DNA from: Candidatus Poribacteria bacterium
GTDB lineage: Bacteria; Poribacteria; WGA-4E; PCPOR2b
DNA length: 64,000 nt
Reading direction: 5' to 3'
Assembly (NCBI GenBank): GCA_022826645.1
Contig: JAJDUM010000053.1
Location: 1-64,000 of the forward strand
Part shown: piece by piece, positions 1,407 to 60,822 of the stretch
Layout: every line of letters begins with the position of its first letter
How positions within the stretch are numbered: the stretch's first letter is position 1
The notes under the pieces: model-generated
The model's input: only the letters and a program-made list of their open reading frames with translations
Databases searched by the model: none
What the model was told of the DNA's origin: nothing
Program-made: the position numbers and the translations under genes

Positions 1407-4400
1407 TCATTTGATGACTGCAATCTTGCCAGTCTTTTTCAGTTCTTCAAATTGCATCACATAGATATAGATACCGCTCGTCACCTCTGTTGCCACATGA
1501 TTGAGAAGCGACCATTCGGTGCGACCAGCATCCGAGGTCGTGACTGTTAATCTATCAAGACGCTCCCCATTCGTATCATAAATTTCAATCGTTGTTCCGG
1601 TAGGAAGGCGATCGAATGTCACAGCAGCCTTGTGAAACTCGCTGGGGCGCACGGGATTTGGGTAGACTCTCACCTTTGAAAAATCCTTAAAATCATCGAA
1701 ATCAGTCTGGAGGGGCACATCAAATGTCTGCGTTGCCTCTAACAGATTTATCGGATTTCGATCCGTATCCCGCACGTCCGAAACGGTGATCTCATAGGTG
1801 CGACCGGGAACGAGATCGGCCGCTCGGAAGGTGAGGATGGCTCGCGTTCCCATCCGATCTCGAATTACGGATACCGGATTAACACCAGCGAGTTGTTTTG
1901 GCTCCCGCAGCAGATAGAGGCGTGAATTACCTGCGGAAGATCCCATCTGTTTATCATAGCTAACAGCAACCTGGTTATGTTGGATGTACGCAGCAGCAAT
2001 CAGTTTAGGTGGGGTGCGCGGCGTAACGAAAACCGGTTCAGACAGGGCGGATTCAACCCCAGCTTCATTCTTTGCGGAAACAGCATACCAATAGGTTACG
2101 TCCTTCGTCACTTTTCGATCGAGGAAACCAACGAAATTCAAGTCTTCGGCGATTGCTTCAAAGTCGGAGGGGGTTTCATCTGGATCCCCCACGGCTCGAT
2201 AGACAGTATAAGATACCGCCTCCTCCGGCGTTTCCCAGTCAATCCGAACTGCACGTGCACTGAGTGGTGTAGCAGACAGTTCATAGGGTTGGATGTTCAC
2301 AACGCTATTTGGATCGCTGGCATGGATGTGCGTGAATGTAAGCAGGTTCTCCTCGCTGTTAAGATATAGTTCGCTAAAGTTGTCTTTATTCAGGTCATCA
2401 AGGAGTAGGCGTGGTGTTTCCCACGCTTCGCGATGCCAGATCGGAACGAAGTCTGGCGAAGTACCATCCACACTTGAGCCGGGCATCCATTTGAACACAT
2501 AGACGCTTGGATTGGCAAGTATTACCAGTTCGTTCTGCAAGTCGCTATCAATATCACCAACCGCGATACTGTTCCCTTTCAGATTGAATGGTGTGATTGC
2601 CTGTGACCATATTAACTGATAGCGCGAGATACCCTTAGTTTGGGAAGTGGTGCCTGCGGGCGGGAAAGCGGTGAACAGATGATATTTCCAACGCGGCAGC
2701 ATCGACGGCAGATCTGCCCGCACTACTGTCCCTCCAACAATGAACTCAGGGGCCCCGTCCCCGGTAAGGTCGCCTGCCGCAAGCTGAAAGGCGTCTTCGA
2801 CATCGAGTTTCATCCGCCACGTTTCAACCAGCAGATTGTCGCCGACAGATTCGTAGACGAAGAGCTCACCCTCACTATCTCCTACCATTAACTCCAAGAT
2901 CCCGTTCGCATCGAAATCACCAATCGCAAATCGTTTGCCGAAAACATTGGAACCCTCTGTCTCATTCTTGATAATAAGAATCTCATCATAAGTGTCGTTT
3001 CCGCGGTTCTCAAAGATACGGATATTGTCGTTGAAATTGTCTGCTCCGATAATCTCCATCCTACCGTCATTGTCCAGATCGGCAATCTGCCCTGACGAGA
3101 GAAACGTGGATTCCCAGATAATTCTTTCCGGATAGCCGTTTGGCGTCACACTTTCGATAAGGAAGAGTCCGTTCCGTGTGCCAGATAGAATTTCTAACAA
3201 CCCATCTCCGTCGGTGTCTCCAACCGCTAATGGTTTAGAATTGATAGCACCGGTATGTCGAAGCTGATAGCCGGCACCCGTCCGTTCATGGATCTCAATC
3301 CCTTGGGTCCCGTCGTCGGCGATTGGAAGCCCGACGATTTCAAGCATGCCGTCCCGATCAAAATCTGCGGTCACACTGCCGAGGTGCATTGGTGGAAGTG
3401 TAGTTGATGTCTCAAGAAATCCGTTGGGCGAGACGGATCCGCTGGTAACCTCCGCCCGATAGAATTTTCCACCGTTGTCGTCGACCGTCTCCAACCCGAC
3501 ATCGTTACGGGAGGTGATAAACAGATCGTAGCTCCCTGTATCGAGTGATAGCGAGAAGAAATGTTCCCGGCTTGCAGCGTTTTCCTCAATCGGTCTGAAC
3601 GGAGCGGTCGCTTCACGCGCGCGTTGGCTCAATGTATTGATTGTGAAATCGTCTGTCGACCAAGAGACAGAGGTGGCGTAGCTGCCCCTTGTGAGCTGGT
3701 TTTGAACCGTTACATTCCGCACTTGGGGTGGCGTGCGATCTACGGAGACGACAACTTCATCACGCAGAACTTTCCCTTCCAGGTTAGTGACCTCAAGGCG
3801 AAGCGTGTAAATACCTTCCGTGACGGCGGACGTTTCCCAGATGAGTAGTGTTTCATTTATCTTTTGCTCCGAAGACGGCGCATTGATGGATTGAAACGTT
3901 GTTGGGACAGCCGAGGGTCCATATAGTAGCTGCCATGTATCAAATTTGAATCCACCTGCGGTCCCGACAATCTCGATCTGATCTGAGCCGCCGCTGTGAG
4001 TTTCCGGCGAAAGAATATTTGCTTGTAAGGAAGCGCTTGCCATCAGTGCCCGTGCTGCGTTCAGATTTCCCGCGCCAACGAGCTCTGGACTCTCTGTAAT
4101 CGGGTCAACGGCTGAAAGCAGAATCTGTCGGACCTCGCGATGTGTCAGGCTTGGACGCTTCGATATAATCAGCCCAGCAACTCCGGATACATGCGCCGTT
4201 GCCATTGATGTGCCGGAGAGAGGGCGATATCGGTTATTGATATGGGTACTTAAGATAACATTGCCCGGTGCACCGATGTCGATAGAGGCACCAAAGTTGG
4301 ATTGGTAAAATTTCTGTTTGTGTTGTTCGGTTGCAGCGACAGAGATGACCTTGCGATAACCGGCGGGGAAAATAGATGCACCCTCCGACTCGTTTCCCGA

Positions 4401-5516
4401 CGCAGCAACCATCAATACCCCTCTCGCGTAGGCGTAATCCACAGCGTCACGCAGCACGAAAGAACGTTCGCGCCCGCCCCAACTCATGTTGATAACCCGC
4501 GCACCGTTGTCCACAGCATAGATGATTGCGGCTGACGAACGGTCATCCCGTATCCCTTCCACACCGGCACCTCGGATTGGCATCAGTGTGCAGTCCCAAG
4601 CGATGCCAGCAATACCCACATCGTTGTCTACCGCGGCTCCAATAATCCCGGCAACATGTGTTCCGTGCCCTGATTCATCAATTGGATCGTTGTCGCCGTT
4701 CCGGGAGCTTCCATTTCCATCGCTATTCGATGGCTCGGAAAAATCCCAGCCGTGTACATCGTCGATGTATCCATTCTTGTCGTCATCAATCCCGTTATCC
4801 GGGATTTCACCAGAGTTAACCCAGGTCTGCGAAGCGAGATCTTCGTGGGTATAATCGAAACCTGTGTCCACAACGGCGACAATGACTTCCGGATCGCCTT
4901 TCTCAATCCCCCACGCCCCCGGCATATCGATCAACGCCAGATTCCATTGTTCATCGAAGTGCGGGTCGTTAGGAATAACTTCGGACGCCTGTGCTTGCCG
5001 GATGTAGTTGAATTGGGCTTCCTCGATCAATGGGTGTGCGGCGTAGTTCGCCCTGACGGTGTGTAGATCGGTGGGGATCTGAAAACGGAGCAGATAAATC
5101 CGTTCAAGGTTCCGGTTGGATTCTGGGTGAGCGATATGTGGAAAGAGGGGATAGATTGAGCGAACTCCCATCTGATTGTGGAGTTCTTGTAAAGGTGACT
5201 TGGCGTACAGTTGTTCCCATTCGGCTTGTGCCTGGGGCGTCACACGAATCAGGAGCTCTCCCTGTGTGAATTGGAGATCGTCGGTAATTGGGAGGGAAGA
5301 CGCGTTCCGTATACCAATAACTGTTGACAGGGAAAGGATTACTAATGTCAAAAGTAGGGCACGGCTCAACGACGGAGGTAGCGAGGAGGCGAGGAGGCGA
5401 GGAGACGAGAAGTTATTTAGATCTATTTGGTTGGAGTAACCGTTGATCAGGTTTATTTTCCATCGTAACGAGTTTGCCAACGATGTTATTGTATAGTTGG
5501 AAAAATTCACCACCAA
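1407..5516 (-). CDS. Subtilisin-like S8 serine protease with FG-GAP/VCBS-type repeats, FN3-like region and C-terminal secretion/sorting-type domain
   Basis: Catalytic motifs VAVVDTGFDYTHEDL (Asp), GHGTHVAGIIGA (His) and GTSMATAHVSGVAGL (Ser). Multiple DxDxDGxxE FG-GAP-like repeats. C-terminus VRVYPNPVRP...IEIYDTNGERLDRL...SGIYIYVMQFEELKKTGKIAVIK resembles the T9SS type A/FlgD-like sorting fold. Confidence 0.85.
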   Translation of the reverse strand: MVVNFSNYTITSLANSLRWKINLINGYSNQIDLNNFSSPRLLASSLPPSLSRALLLTLVILSLSTVIGIRNASSLPITDDLQFTQGELLIRVTPQAQAEWEQLYAKSPLQELHNQMGVRSIYPLFPHIAHPESNRNLERIYLLRFQIPTDLHTVRANYAAHPLIEEAQFNYIRQAQASEVIPNDPHFDEQWNLALIDMPGAWGIEKGDPEVIVAVVDTGFDYTHEDLASQTWVNSGEIPDNGIDDDKNGYIDDVHGWDFSEPSNSDGNGSSRNGDNDPIDESGHGTHVAGIIGAAVDNDVGIAGIAWDCTLMPIRGAGVEGIRDDRSSAAIIYAVDNGARVINMSWGGRERSFVLRDAVDYAYARGVLMVAASGNESEGASIFPAGYRKVISVAATEQHKQKFYQSNFGASIDIGAPGNVILSTHINNRYRPLSGTSMATAHVSGVAGLIISKRPSLTHREVRQILLSAVDPITESPELVGAGNLNAARALMASASLQANILSPETHSGGSDQIEIVGTAGGFKFDTWQLLYGPSAVPTTFQSINAPSSEQKINETLLIWETSAVTEGIYTLRLEVTNLEGKVLRDEVVVSVDRTPPQVRNVTVQNQLTRGSYATSVSWSTDDFTINTLSQRAREATAPFRPIEENAASREHFFSLSLDTGSYDLFITSRNDVGLETVDDNGGKFYRAEVTSGSVSPNGFLETSTTLPPMHLGSVTADFDRDGMLEIVGLPIADDGTQGIEIHERTGAGYQLRHTGAINSKPLAVGDTDGDGLLEILSGTRNGLFLIESVTPNGYPERIIWESTFLSSGQIADLDNDGRMEIIGADNFNDNIRIFENRGNDTYDEILIIKNETEGSNVFGKRFAIGDFDANGILELMVGDSEGELFVYESVGDNLLVETWRMKLDVEDAFQLAAGDLTGDGAPEFIVGGTVVRADLPSMLPRWKYHLFTAFPPAGTTSQTKGISRYQLIWSQAITPFNLKGNSIAVGDIDSDLQNELVILANPSVYVFKWMPGSSVDGTSPDFVPIWHREAWETPRLLLDDLNKDNFSELYLNSEENLLTFTHIHASDPNSVVNIQPYELSATPLSARAVRIDWETPEEAVSYTVYRAVGDPDETPSDFEAIAEDLNFVGFLDRKVTKDVTYWYAVSAKNEAGVESALSEPVFVTPRTPPKLIAAAYIQHNQVAVSYDKQMGSSAGNSRLYLLREPKQLAGVNPVSVIRDRMGTRAILTFRAADLVPGRTYEITVSDVRDTDRNPINLLEATQTFDVPLQTDFDDFKDFSKVRVYPNPVRPSEFHKAAVTFDRLPTGTTIEIYDTNGERLDRLTVTTSDAGRTEWSLLNHVATEVTSGIYIYVMQFEELKKTGKIAVIK

Positions 5517-5539
5517 CCTCCTTCATAATGATCCAAATC

Positions 5540-5564
5540 CGTAGGCGGGGCATCTTGCCCTGCC
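5540..5564. repeat. Short palindromic repeat family F
   Basis: CCGTAGGCGGGGCATCTTGCCCTGCC; near-identical copy at about 31585-31610. Confidence 0.5.
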
Positions 5565-5702
5565 GTAGCCTCAAACGGGAGATCGCGCTACGGGAGAATT
5601 CAATGACCCTACCTTTGACCAAATCGAGATTTACACCGCTAGCTTCAAGTGGTATAATTTAACATATCATAGCAAGAATTAGCAAAGGGAGATATAGATA
5701 TT

Positions 5703-7112
5703 ATGGAACTGTACGAAGCAGTTAGTCCTCTTGATTTCAGGTATTACGGGGGCAGTGAGGCGGTTATGAAGAAACTGCTGCCCTACGTCTCGGAAGCCGC
5801 CTACGTCAAATACCAAGCCAAAGTTGAGGCTGCATTGGTGCGAACGCTTGCCAAACACAACATCTGTTCCCATGAGATTGCCGATGAAGTTGAACGGGCA
5901 GCGGAAGAGGTAACAGCAGCAGAGGTTTACGAAGAGCAATCACGTATTCGACACAACATCCGTTCGCTCGTGAACGTGATGAGACGGAAGATTAGTCCAG
6001 ACGCGCGTCCGTATGTCCACCTGTTTGCAACATCCGCGGATATCCTTGATACTGCAACGGCGCTGCGCTTTAAGGAGTTGACCCAAAACGTGGTACTTCC
6101 AGATCTCATCGAACTTGAGAATCGGTTCATAGATCTCGCGCGTGAGCACGCAGGAACGGTGCAGATTGGTCGGACACATGGGCAACATGCCGAACCGATT
6201 ACCTTTGGCTACGCCATGGCACTTTACGTCAGTCGGATCGGAAACCGGATCGAACTGATAGACCGTGCAAGCCAAAACCTGCGCGGACAATTCTCGGGCG
6301 CAGTGGGCGCGTTCAACGGCCTTGCACTGATAGTGGAGCAACCGGAGCAGATGGAAGCAGACCTGCTCGCAGAGCTTGGCTTGAAACCGTCGGATACACA
6401 TACTTCGACGCAGTGCGTTGAACCTGAGTTTATCACCGACCTCGCTTATGCGATTACCTCCGCCTACACTATCCTCGCAAACTTTGCAGATGATATCCGG
6501 CATCTCTATCGCACGGAAATCGCAGAGATCAGCAAGCAGTATGACCCTCAGTTGGTTGGCTCATCCACGATGCCGCACAAGATCAACCCCGAAACATATG
6601 AGACGGTGAAGGGACTTTGGAAAGCGTATGTGCCGCGCATGACGACAGTGTTTATGGACCAGATTTTGGAGCATCAACGCGATCTTACCAATTCGGCATC
6701 GAGCCGCTTCCTGACGGAACTTTTCACCGCGTTTGACTATTCAATTTATCGTTTGATTCGCGCGTTAGGTGAGATGGATGTGAAAGTGGATAATATGGAG
6801 CGGAATCTTGAGGCGAGTGCCGGTGACACGGTGGCTGAACCGATCTATCTTTTGATGGCGTATTACGGGTTCCCTGATGCCTACGACCACACCCGCAAAC
6901 TGGTCGCTCAGGTGCATGAGACGGGGCGACAGCTGACGGAACTGTTATGGGCGGATGAGACACTGCAACCTTTCCTCGAAAATCTAACCCCCATACAGCA
7001 GGAAGCGCTCCGTGACCCGAAGAAATATATCGGGGTATCTGTGCAGCGGACACATGCAACCTGTGATGAATGGGAAGAACGGGTGCAGGAAGTTTTGACC
7101 ACGTGTGGATAG
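5703..7112 (+). CDS. purB: Adenylosuccinate lyase
   Basis: MELYEAVSPLDFRYYGG start; fumarase/aspartase-superfamily signature GSSTMPHKINPETYE; TSADILDTATALRF and GRTHGQHAEPITFG motifs. Confidence 0.9.
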   Translation: MELYEAVSPLDFRYYGGSEAVMKKLLPYVSEAAYVKYQAKVEAALVRTLAKHNICSHEIADEVERAAEEVTAAEVYEEQSRIRHNIRSLVNVMRRKISPDARPYVHLFATSADILDTATALRFKELTQNVVLPDLIELENRFIDLAREHAGTVQIGRTHGQHAEPITFGYAMALYVSRIGNRIELIDRASQNLRGQFSGAVGAFNGLALIVEQPEQMEADLLAELGLKPSDTHTSTQCVEPEFITDLAYAITSAYTILANFADDIRHLYRTEIAEISKQYDPQLVGSSTMPHKINPETYETVKGLWKAYVPRMTTVFMDQILEHQRDLTNSASSRFLTELFTAFDYSIYRLIRALGEMDVKVDNMERNLEASAGDTVAEPIYLLMAYYGFPDAYDHTRKLVAQVHETGRQLTELLWADETLQPFLENLTPIQQEALRDPKKYIGVSVQRTHATCDEWEERVQEVLTTCG

Positions 7113-58166: not shown

Positions 58167-58341
58167 GAAGAGTGTCTTTCTGCAATTGAAGTATGTTGAT
58201 AGTCCATTGCTGTGAGATCAGCGGGTGATGTCATAACCGCTGTTATTGACAACCTAAAGTTAAATCCTATTTGACATATCCGATGTTTTCACATACAATG
58301 GGTAGGCACTCAATTAAGTTCTGAAAGGAGGTGTAACCCAA

Positions 58342-58725
58342 ATGCGTATACTAAAACTCACACTAATTTGCTGCGTTGCAATTCTGCTTGCTATCGGCTG
58401 TGCTTCAGAGAAGGCGATGGAAAAGGCGGCTGAGACAGCGGAGCCAGCAATGACAAAAGCCGAAACCGCTTCAAGCACCGATATGTCCGAAGCAGCTCCA
58501 GCGGCTTACGAACAGGTCACATTAGACGTTGATGGGCTGGCGTGAGGGAGCTGTGTAGCCAAAGTGCGGTCCGCACTTACAAACGTTCCTGGTGTGATTA
58601 GTGCCGATGTTTCCCAAGCAGATGGTACAGCCGTCGTTAAGCTGGAAAAAGGTAAAGCCACTGATGTCCAATTGGCTGATGCTGTCAAAAACGCAGGTTT
58701 TAGCGCAAAAACCGCAACAAATTAA
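58342..58725 (+). CDS. Putative selenocysteine-containing HMA (heavy-metal-associated) domain lipoprotein; in-frame TGA at 58543-58545 predicted as Sec (UxxC)
   Basis: AAAGGAGG upstream of ATG. Lipoprotein-like leader LTLICCVAILLAIGC. The frame continues through the TGA as ...YEQVTLDVDGLA-U-GSCVAKVRSALTNVPGVISADVSQADGTAVVKLEKGKATDVQLADAVKNAGFSAKTATN-TAA, an HMA domain whose first CxxC cysteine is the TGA. Downstream hairpin AAGTGC-GGTCC-GCACTT. Confidence 0.8.
58562..58578 (+). promoter_or_regulatory. Putative bacterial SECIS element
   Basis: AAGUGC-GGUCC-GCACUU: 6 bp perfect stem (7 bp if G58568-C58572 pairs), loop starting with GG. The loop starts 22 nt after the TGA, fitting the general bSECIS geometry (G in first loop positions, loop roughly 16-37 nt from UGA). 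Confidence 0.68.
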
Positions 58726-58746: not shown

Positions 58747-58789
58747 AGAACGGAAGGTTTCGAATCAACGAACCGACACCTTCCGTTCT
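58747..58789. terminator. Bidirectional intrinsic terminator-like hairpin
   Basis: Perfect 12-bp stem AGAACGGAAGGT...ACCTTCCGTTCT, followed by T-rich sequence, 21 nt after the TAA of the HMA gene and between convergent genes. Confidence 0.6.
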
Positions 58790-58854: not shown

Positions 58855-60822
58855 TCACTGCATCCCACCCATTTGCTGCAGCCCGATAAGCATAATGATG
58901 ATTTCCTTGAAATCGCCGAGCGAGATAAATAGCTCCCCTGCAATTCCTTCATCCCGATTTTGGCTGGCAATACCGATGCTGTAGGTTTCGGGGATGTTAA
59001 CTAAAAACATCTGGATCACGCCAACGTTTGGATCTAGCTGACCAAAAATCTGTACGAGGTTCTTGATTGCTGTGACAGGTGAGATCGCAAAAAGCATGTT
59101 GTTTTCCAACGTCAATGCGTCCGCCAGTTTAGTATAGCCCGCTCCCTGATCAAAACCTGCGCTCATACCGGCCATTCGGTCTAGGGCATTCTTCACCGGT
59201 TGAGCATTGCCCGCCATCCCGTAGAGCATTTTCCCGCCGCTAATAGCGTAGTAGACGTTCCACTGTTCTGGGGCGACCCCTGCCATTTCGGGCGGAAGTT
59301 CACCGAGACTGGAGGTGATATTCGGAAGGAGGTAACTTCTGATTTCCACACCGTTGTATATCTCAGGGGGACCCGCCGACACGTCCGCGTACATGCTAGC
59401 GAATTCCTGACCGGCTCCCATCGCTTTGACAAGTCCCATCGAGGCTCCGAAATATTCAATGAAACCTTCTTCCATATACGATTTAACCAGCTCTTCGTCC
59501 GTTACATCGTAGATATACAGTATATCGGGCATTATGCTATCGCTGAAATTAAAGGAAAGAGCTTGCCCATCTCCCAAGCCTTCGTAGAACTCTATAAAGG
59601 CTTCATTCAACGCCTCAGACGCGGTTTGGATCCCCGTTGTATCCGCGTTCGGATCCGAGGGGACAAACAACTTCATCATTGTCTGCGTAAGACTAATGAG
59701 CGTCTCTTTCTGAAATTGCATTTCACCGTTGACAAACGCATTTTGAGGCAGGTATTTGAGATGTGTTAGCTCTTGTGGTCCTTGGCGAATGTATGTTTGG
59801 ACTGCACTATCCCGCTTAAATTTGAGGAACGGAGAGATCTGTAGGTCGCTGCCGTTGAGTTGCAGCGTAAGACTGAGGGTTCTTGACTGATCGAGCAACC
59901 ATATACCACCGTCAATCAAACTTTCAGTATACTTTAAGCCAACGCTAAGCTCTGGATCTGATTCCGCGCTTGCCTCCATCTCCGTCTTTAACCCCTCTGC
60001 CTTACCCGTCAGCATGGGGCGGAGATCATCTACGATAGTATCCATCGCAAAATAGGCAATCACATCATTTGCCCCAGATGTAGTATCGAGTTCGAGCGAT
60101 TGGAAATCTGTATTGGCTGCGATCGATGGCATCATCTTCTTTTGGGTATCAATCACTTTTTCGCAGACCGCTGCCGAGTTTGAGTACACCATCACATCGT
60201 CCATTAGAACGAATGCGCCCTCCTCACCTGTGGTGTGATATGTTACACCGTTATGGGTGACGGCGCTGCTGCTTTCTGCCTCCATTTCAATGAGTTGTTT
60301 GACGCTTTCGGCATCCTTAACGTGAACCGCTGCGGAAGGCATTGGTGGATTGGCACTGGAGAGAAACACCGCGAAGTCCCTCCGCATGTCTAAGCCCAGT
60401 TCTTCCAATTCTGCGAGCGTCTCAAAACCTGCGCCAAAAGTCTCTGCTAAGATCTGAGCAAGTATTTCCTGCGGTGGATCTGAAGGAACCATCTCCACCA
60501 TAAGTGCGTTGATTTCGTCATTGAGGCCGAGTAAGCTGGGTATGTAAATAAGCCCAACAGTGTCTTGGGGTATAACATTCAAGACGCTATCGGGAGCGAT
60601 ATCTACAGCAACGTCTACGGCAGTATCGGAAGCGACATCTGCGCTATCAGACGCGACATCTGCACTCTCGGAAGCGACATCTGCACTCTCAGATATAACC
60701 TCTGCATCGCTAACGGGCGTGACCTGAGCGGGTGTTGCCATTTCTTTACTGCTGCAATTCGACACCATGATGCAAGCCACCAAGATTAGGATTGCGATAG
60801 TTAAACGACAGGACGTTTTCAT
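58855..60822 (-). CDS. Lipoprotein, DUF3352-like
   Basis: Lipobox-type leader LTIAILILVACIMVSNC; VLNVIPQDTVGLIYIPSLLGLNDEINAL...DFAVFLSSANPPMPSAAVHVKDAESVKQLIE resembles DUF3352 architecture. Confidence 0.65.
   Translation of the reverse strand: MKTSCRLTIAILILVACIMVSNCSSKEMATPAQVTPVSDAEVISESADVASESADVASDSADVASDTAVDVAVDIAPDSVLNVIPQDTVGLIYIPSLLGLNDEINALMVEMVPSDPPQEILAQILAETFGAGFETLAELEELGLDMRRDFAVFLSSANPPMPSAAVHVKDAESVKQLIEMEAESSSAVTHNGVTYHTTGEEGAFVLMDDVMVYSNSAAVCEKVIDTQKKMMPSIAANTDFQSLELDTTSGANDVIAYFAMDTIVDDLRPMLTGKAEGLKTEMEASAESDPELSVGLKYTESLIDGGIWLLDQSRTLSLTLQLNGSDLQISPFLKFKRDSAVQTYIRQGPQELTHLKYLPQNAFVNGEMQFQKETLISLTQTMMKLFVPSDPNADTTGIQTASEALNEAFIEFYEGLGDGQALSFNFSDSIMPDILYIYDVTDEELVKSYMEEGFIEYFGASMGLVKAMGAGQEFASMYADVSAGPPEIYNGVEIRSYLLPNITSSLGELPPEMAGVAPEQWNVYYAISGGKMLYGMAGNAQPVKNALDRMAGMSAGFDQGAGYTKLADALTLENNMLFAISPVTAIKNLVQIFGQLDPNVGVIQMFLVNIPETYSIGIASQNRDEGIAGELFISLGDFKEIIIMLIGLQQMGGMQ
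60631..60693. repeat. 21-bp tandem repeat (3 units) within the lipoprotein gene
   Basis: agcgacatctgcgctatcaga / cgcgacatctgcactctcgga / agcgacatctgcactctcaga, encoding the (S-A-D-V-A-S-E/D)n segment after the lipobox. Confidence 0.7.

Follow-up and report, generated by a model that had tools for sequence, protein, structure and literature searches.

How the TGA at positions 58543-58545 is read in a 64,000-nucleotide stretch of DNA (assembly GCA_022826645.1, contig JAJDUM010000053.1, positions 1 to 64,000; hereafter the window) from the sponge-associated Candidatus Poribacteria decides what the surrounding gene encodes: does translation end there, or is the codon decoded as selenocysteine (Sec)? 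An earlier note, made from the letters alone, had placed the end of the open reading frame (ORF) at 58545, followed the same frame for 59 further codons to a TAA and proposed a new selenoprotein. Both coordinates are confirmed, with the TAA at 58723-58725. Our best explanation, at a probability of roughly 0.85, is a lipoprotein with a Sec-containing HMA domain (Sec-HMA lipoprotein) that would capture soft metal ions outside the cytoplasm. That the gene at 58342-58725 encodes a Sec-containing protein seems close to certain from its sequence; that metal capture is its main role, as HMA homology suggests, we hold with moderate confidence.

Read through the TGA, the gene yields a protein of 127 residues (MRILKLTLICCVAILLAIGC(20)...DVDGLA-U(68)-GSC-VAKVRSAL...) rather than one of 67, and the longer product scores 49.2 bits against the PF00403 HMA profile (gathering cut-off 24.8), which bears out the claim that the continuation completes an HMA domain. 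An AlphaFold model built with 20 homologues gives block-mean pLDDT values of 94-98 for residues 61-120, in the order strand-helix-strand-strand-helix-strand, preceded by an N-terminal helix (residues 4-17) and a disordered linker (residues 20-51). The 67-residue truncated product would contain just the first strand of this domain. In the PDB this domain is best matched by MerP (1osd), a domain of a copper ATPase (3dxs) and CopZ (6ff2), with root-mean-square deviations of 0.9-1.2 Å. As the earlier note had placed it, the TGA takes the place of the first Cys codon in the CxxC motif of HMA domains: Cys homologues carry CxxC in the column of Sec68, and the solved HMA proteins in the PDB also have Cys there. 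UxxC in place of CxxC is a conservative swap of the first Cys.

Homologues were sought in 98 genomes, with matches in 88; the genomes compared are metagenome-derived assemblies. A single TGA, located at the HMA position, is found in each lipoprotein copy from the genus and in nearly all those from the order; it is retained in all six genus genomes, in copies at 75-94% identity. Among distinct HMA ORFs the Sec codon is TGA in 89 and TGC or TGT in six (five proteins, one listed twice), and among the homologues read out this column holds U or C and no other residue. Since the TGA is kept in independent genomes, the sequencing error that the earlier note had considered does not explain it. Within the genus, the ratio of nonsynonymous to synonymous divergence (dN/dS) is 0.21 before the UGA, 0.30 after it, and 0.25 after it when the hairpin codons discussed below are left out; the region 3' of the UGA is therefore under purifying, protein-level selection.

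Variant forms also occur. In a class-level relative (L073, genome G075) the Sec-HMA frame is broken by an extra TAG, possibly a pseudogene or an assembly error, and three genomes (G011, G014 and G016; loci L083, L086 and L097) carry a U-x-x-x-C variant, GMTUGISC, in which Sec and Cys are separated by one more residue and the hairpin is kept.

Downstream of the UGA lies a hairpin resembling a bacterial Sec insertion sequence (bSECIS), an element defined in general as a hairpin just 3' of the UGA whose small apical loop includes a G (PMC1088965). Its 6-7 base pair (bp) stem and its GGUCC loop, 22 nucleotides after the UGA, are as the earlier note described them, and throughout the family the hairpin is constrained like an RNA element. 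The statistics come from 82 distinct UxxC sequences gathered by protein similarity and not by hairpin pattern; a cross-phylum set selected by that pattern was excluded from them. The core stem pairs GUGC/GCAC are intact in 82/82 Sec sequences. The 3' arm contains Ala codon 10, for which 80/80 Sec forms use GCA, compared with 20 of 133 Ala codons at other places in the first 20 codons; the 5' arm contains Val codon 7, for which 81/82 use GTG, compared with 38 of 243 at other places in the same stretch. Within the genus the hairpin codons show zero synonymous changes, against 28% synonymous divergence elsewhere after the UGA. The loop-closing pair is A-U in 73 sequences and G-C in 7, and at one locus (L040) GTAC...GTAC replaces GTGC...GCAC, a two-sided exchange of G-C for A-U that costs an Ala-to-Val change. 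In the five Cys proteins, Ala codon 10 is GCG three times and GCT and GCC once each, with GCA in 0/5; two of these proteins break one pair of the core stem and one breaks two. This is the pattern expected of a bSECIS under selection. We note that only a fixed-register comparison was used here, since G-U pairs or other registers give stems of 6-7 bp in many of the Cys forms as well, and a generic stem finder was dropped.

The source assembly of the window (6.04 Mb, 94% complete), in which the window belongs to contig 120, contains all the Sec genes that the earlier note had proposed to look for. selA (3349-4797), selB (4813-6735) and a tRNA-Sec gene with a TCA anticodon (6772-6865) are clustered on contig 2, while selD lies on contig 13 (L059:2895-3956) and has an in-frame TGA of its own (...AKTCGUAAKVSP...), which makes SelD probably a selenoprotein in its own right. 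As an ordinary stop, TGA ends 12 of the 37 long ORFs in the window, in agreement with the earlier view that there is no global recoding.

Several observations weigh against our interpretation. Taken alone, the open frame is unremarkable, as 88 of the 1205 plus-strand TGAs in the window have at least 59 open codons after them. For the single sequence, roughly 5% of random synonymous recodings produce a hairpin of equal length, and the fold of the hairpin is not significant (z-score -0.35) and so was not used alone as evidence. Cys forms have not lost the hairpin cleanly, as two of the five proteins retain a G-U core stem. Full-length SelA is absent from nine of 73 order-level genomes, all of them fragmented assemblies, five with a tRNA-Sec above cut-off and four with neither. 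Neighbour-gene clustering around 114 loci of the wider family revealed no conserved metal-handling partner for the lipoprotein, and metal capture therefore rests on domain homology. Because open frames after TGA are common and the hairpin could arise by chance, outside evidence is needed, and it comes from homology, from the Cys residues aligned with the UGA, from the Sec genes and from the conservation that the computational analysis uncovered. Sequence evidence of this kind shows Sec coding, the SECIS-like element, the HMA fold, the presence of the Sec machinery and the conservation of the family.

We propose that SelB, with Sec-tRNA(UCA), would recognise the hairpin at 58562-58578 and decode the UGA at 58543 as Sec, and that translation would continue to the TAA, completing the ferredoxin-like HMA domain. 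The protein would then be exported, lipidated at Cys20 as the lipobox predicts, and tethered to the periplasmic face of a membrane by its flexible linker. Its U-x-x-C site would bind a soft metal ion, a property predicted from HMA homology, with the selenolate gripping Cu(I), Hg(II), Ag(I) or Cd(II) tighter than a thiolate would, and the protein would scavenge or carry this ion outside the cytoplasm. The identity of the metal and any partner are likewise putative; the single P1B-type Cu ATPase of the source genome, which has two CxxC HMA domains, is a candidate metal partner.

The main rival is a redox role, in which U-x-x-C would form a selenenylsulfide and the HMA fold would be reused in a membrane thiol oxidoreductase or a scavenger of peroxides or electrophiles. 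The UxxC motif is common in redox proteins, to which most of the known UxxC selenoproteins belong (PMC1088965). A related family fuses Sec-HMA to cytochrome c and WD40, an arrangement that would fit electron transfer, and the metal-related neighbourhood expected of a chaperone is the one absent from the 114-locus clustering. However, the fold and the GMTUxxC context match metal-binding HMA domains, not thioredoxin-like ones, and HMA proteins with tandem sites (L175, L180 and L206) resemble metal-binding arrays such as ATP7B. We consider a redox role rather unlikely.

Much less probable is mercury resistance, in which a Sec version of periplasmic MerP would hand Hg(II) to MerT and MerA. Selenols bind Hg(II) very tightly, and MerP is the best PDB fold match; a Sec-containing MerP has also been reported in the GOS metagenome, as two sequences in one cluster (PMC2398784). 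Yet the window protein scores 48.5 bits with the MerP model TIGR02052 and does not reach its cut-off of 92.55, no mer operon was found adjoining the gene at this locus, and the predicted lipid anchor is unlike the soluble periplasmic form. Matches to MerA in the source genome all score under the family cut-off and lack the vicinal Cys pair at the C terminus, and by these features they are dihydrolipoamide-dehydrogenase-like. A search for MerT gave no match, but the search control was silent too. With no MerA, and MerT not found under that silent control, copper or general soft-metal capture is favoured over mercury resistance, and mercury specificity is unsupported. The earlier suggestion of soft-metal binding or redox activity, mercury included, is thus retained for soft-metal capture and loses support for mercury.

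That the UGA is a true stop, leaving a 67-residue lipopeptide followed by a decayed remnant or a sequencing error, is already refuted by the sequences: open frames after TGA are not rare, as counted above, but the same TGA recurs in many independent genomes, purifying selection extends beyond it with no further stop downstream, the synonymous sites of the hairpin hardly vary and the genome has the full Sec machinery. Decoding as Trp, Cys or Gly, through a reassigned code or near-cognate read-through, would fit the conserved codon position and is the least credible of all, given that TGA serves as a stop in the window, that the UGA aligns with a metal-ligand Cys, and that tRNA-Sec, SelA, SelB and SelD are present with a hairpin at bSECIS distance.

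Table 1. Features of the Sec-HMA lipoprotein gene and its flanks, in window coordinates.
Feature	Position	Strand	Details and basis
Selenoprotein gene	58342..58725	+	ATG to TAA, 127 aa, UGA as Sec at codon 68
Sigma-70-like promoter TTGACA-17-TACAAT	58271..58299	+	11/12 matches; taken as a consensus match only, because 0.7 such matches are expected by chance in the region
Shine-Dalgarno AAAGGAGGTG	58324..58333	+	8 nt upstream of ATG; read from sequence
Signal peptide and lipobox LLAIG-C20	58342..58401	+	sequence; Cys20 nearly invariant in alignment; predicted lipidation
Low-complexity linker, ~35 aa	directly after lipobox	+	sequence; disorder in AlphaFold model
HMA domain, residues 60-120	58519..58701	+	complete only with UGA read-through
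In-frame UGA (Sec68), first residue of U-G-S-C metal-binding motif	58543..58545	+	TGA/TGC/TGT column; Cys in PDB homologues
bSECIS hairpin AAGUGC-GGUCC-GCACUU (putative)	58562..58578	+	core 4 bp, frozen third positions, pair exchange
12-bp inverted repeat AGAACGGAAGGT...ACCTTCCGTTCT, then T-rich tract	58747..58789	+	3' of TAA; read from sequence

The inverted repeat 3' of the gene likely marks the end of transcription; a terminator scan did not pick it up, its loop exceeding the limit of the scan. An Rfam scan of the 64-kb window at gathering thresholds gave no match. The adjoining gene, at 58855-60822 on the minus strand, encodes a large lipoprotein-like product whose signal peptide is followed by a low-complexity repeat, SADVASESADVASDSADVASD.

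The family extends beyond Poribacteria. One exact-pattern scan (UGA, spacing and GTGCRG-NNN-GCAC) over 84,980 species genomes returned at least 116 loci; among the matches listed, 114 are U-x-x-C HMA domains and two, in Acidimicrobiaceae (L118) and Nocardia (L211), have no HMA domain and are chance matches, of which we estimate that about two are expected from the pattern length. The 114 Sec-HMA loci among the matches listed comprise 96 from Poribacteria and 18 from genomes labelled Planctomycetes, Acidobacteria, Latescibacterota, Verrucomicrobia (Akkermansiaceae) and bacterium BMS3Bbin03; SelB lies above cut-off in 16 of these 18 genomes among the matches listed. Bins with the record titles Kuenenia and Singulisphaera are possibly misassigned. 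Of the 98 short family members among the matches listed, 84 have a signal peptide with a lipobox-like motif.

Architectures differ among these members. The window's genus has a single Sec-HMA lipoprotein, many genomes of a second family (f3) have two adjacent ones, and three loci (L175, L180, which is the L070 site, and L206) have three HMA domains per ORF, with a separate UGA and hairpin for every domain. Among PSCyt1-WD40 proteins that have HMA as their C-terminal domain, those of family f3 carry Sec where those of the window's genus carry Cys (examples are L060:3894-5630, on contig 7 of the source genome, and L066:577-2235), and neighbour clustering often places their genes near sulfatase-like genes. 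Their length had suggested mercuric reductases, a reading that their PSCyt1-WD40-HMA make-up shows to be wrong. We tentatively raise the possibility that Poribacteria and scattered members of other phyla use Sec as a routine surface metal ligand, with a widespread, unnamed extracytoplasmic Sec-HMA family (single and tandem lipoproteins, triple-Sec arrays and cytochrome-WD40-HMA fusions) forming a selenium-based metal-capture layer that may have spread between phyla together with its SECIS.

HMA-type selenoproteins were known before. The earlier note had cautioned that HMA/MerP-type selenoproteins might already be known, and they are (PMC2398784, PMC13188914), so its claim of novelty would stand for the Sec-HMA lipoprotein and not for the wider type. 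According to reviews, Sec occurs in a mercuric transport protein, in an E1-E2 ATPase with UxxC and in the UxxU protein NF041115 (PMC13188914, PMC9312934). A literature search, in which most subscription journals were not covered, found no paper on Sec-HMA lipoproteins or on Poribacteria selenoproteins, and Sec-HMA lipoproteins are apparently undescribed as a family.

Similar to the window protein, the UxxU metal-binding (seleno)protein NF041115 is small, of HMA type and has Sec in its metal motif, and its model is matched by all 20 scanned family members; proteins of this type are listed as 'metal-binding protein (putative mercuric reductase)' (PMC13188914). However, NF041115 has UxxU, with two Sec, in a 74-position model, whereas the window protein combines UxxC with a signal peptide and a lipobox, and scores 57 bits without reaching the cut-off of 95. 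At the second motif position, the window protein and the 82 aligned UxxC sequences all have Cys, so none of them shows UxxU. The Sec MerP and putative Sec mercuric transport proteins of GOS and Carboxydothermus, compared by description only, are also extracytoplasmic HMA proteins with predicted Sec, but are tied by name to mercury transport, and no MerA was found in the source genome, nor MerT in the search with the silent control. NF045683, a MerT/CopZ fusion selenoprotein, shares an HMA domain with selenium-based metal handling; it is a membrane MerT fusion, and the window protein matches its C-terminal HMA domain alone (31 bits, cut-off 375). The metallochaperones CopZ, Atox1 and MerP (PF00403) have the same fold, GMTCxxC motif and domain length, but are Cys-only and free in the cytosol or periplasm, in contrast to the predicted lipoprotein. 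The cation-transporting E1-E2 ATPase ABB15669 (PMC13188914) also has UxxC in a metal-handling protein, there on a P-type ATPase and here on a predicted lipoprotein. The window protein falls under the cut-offs of all NCBIfam models tested.

Most selenoproteins use Sec for redox catalysis, and just a small number of families, little tested so far, plausibly use it to bind metal. The Sec-HMA family is common, small enough to express, and has natural Cys counterparts in relatives of the same genomes; the question of whether selenium is used for metal grip is therefore directly testable. With this finding, Poribacteria and several other phyla gain a selenoprotein family, one whose members standard annotation would truncate at the UGA.
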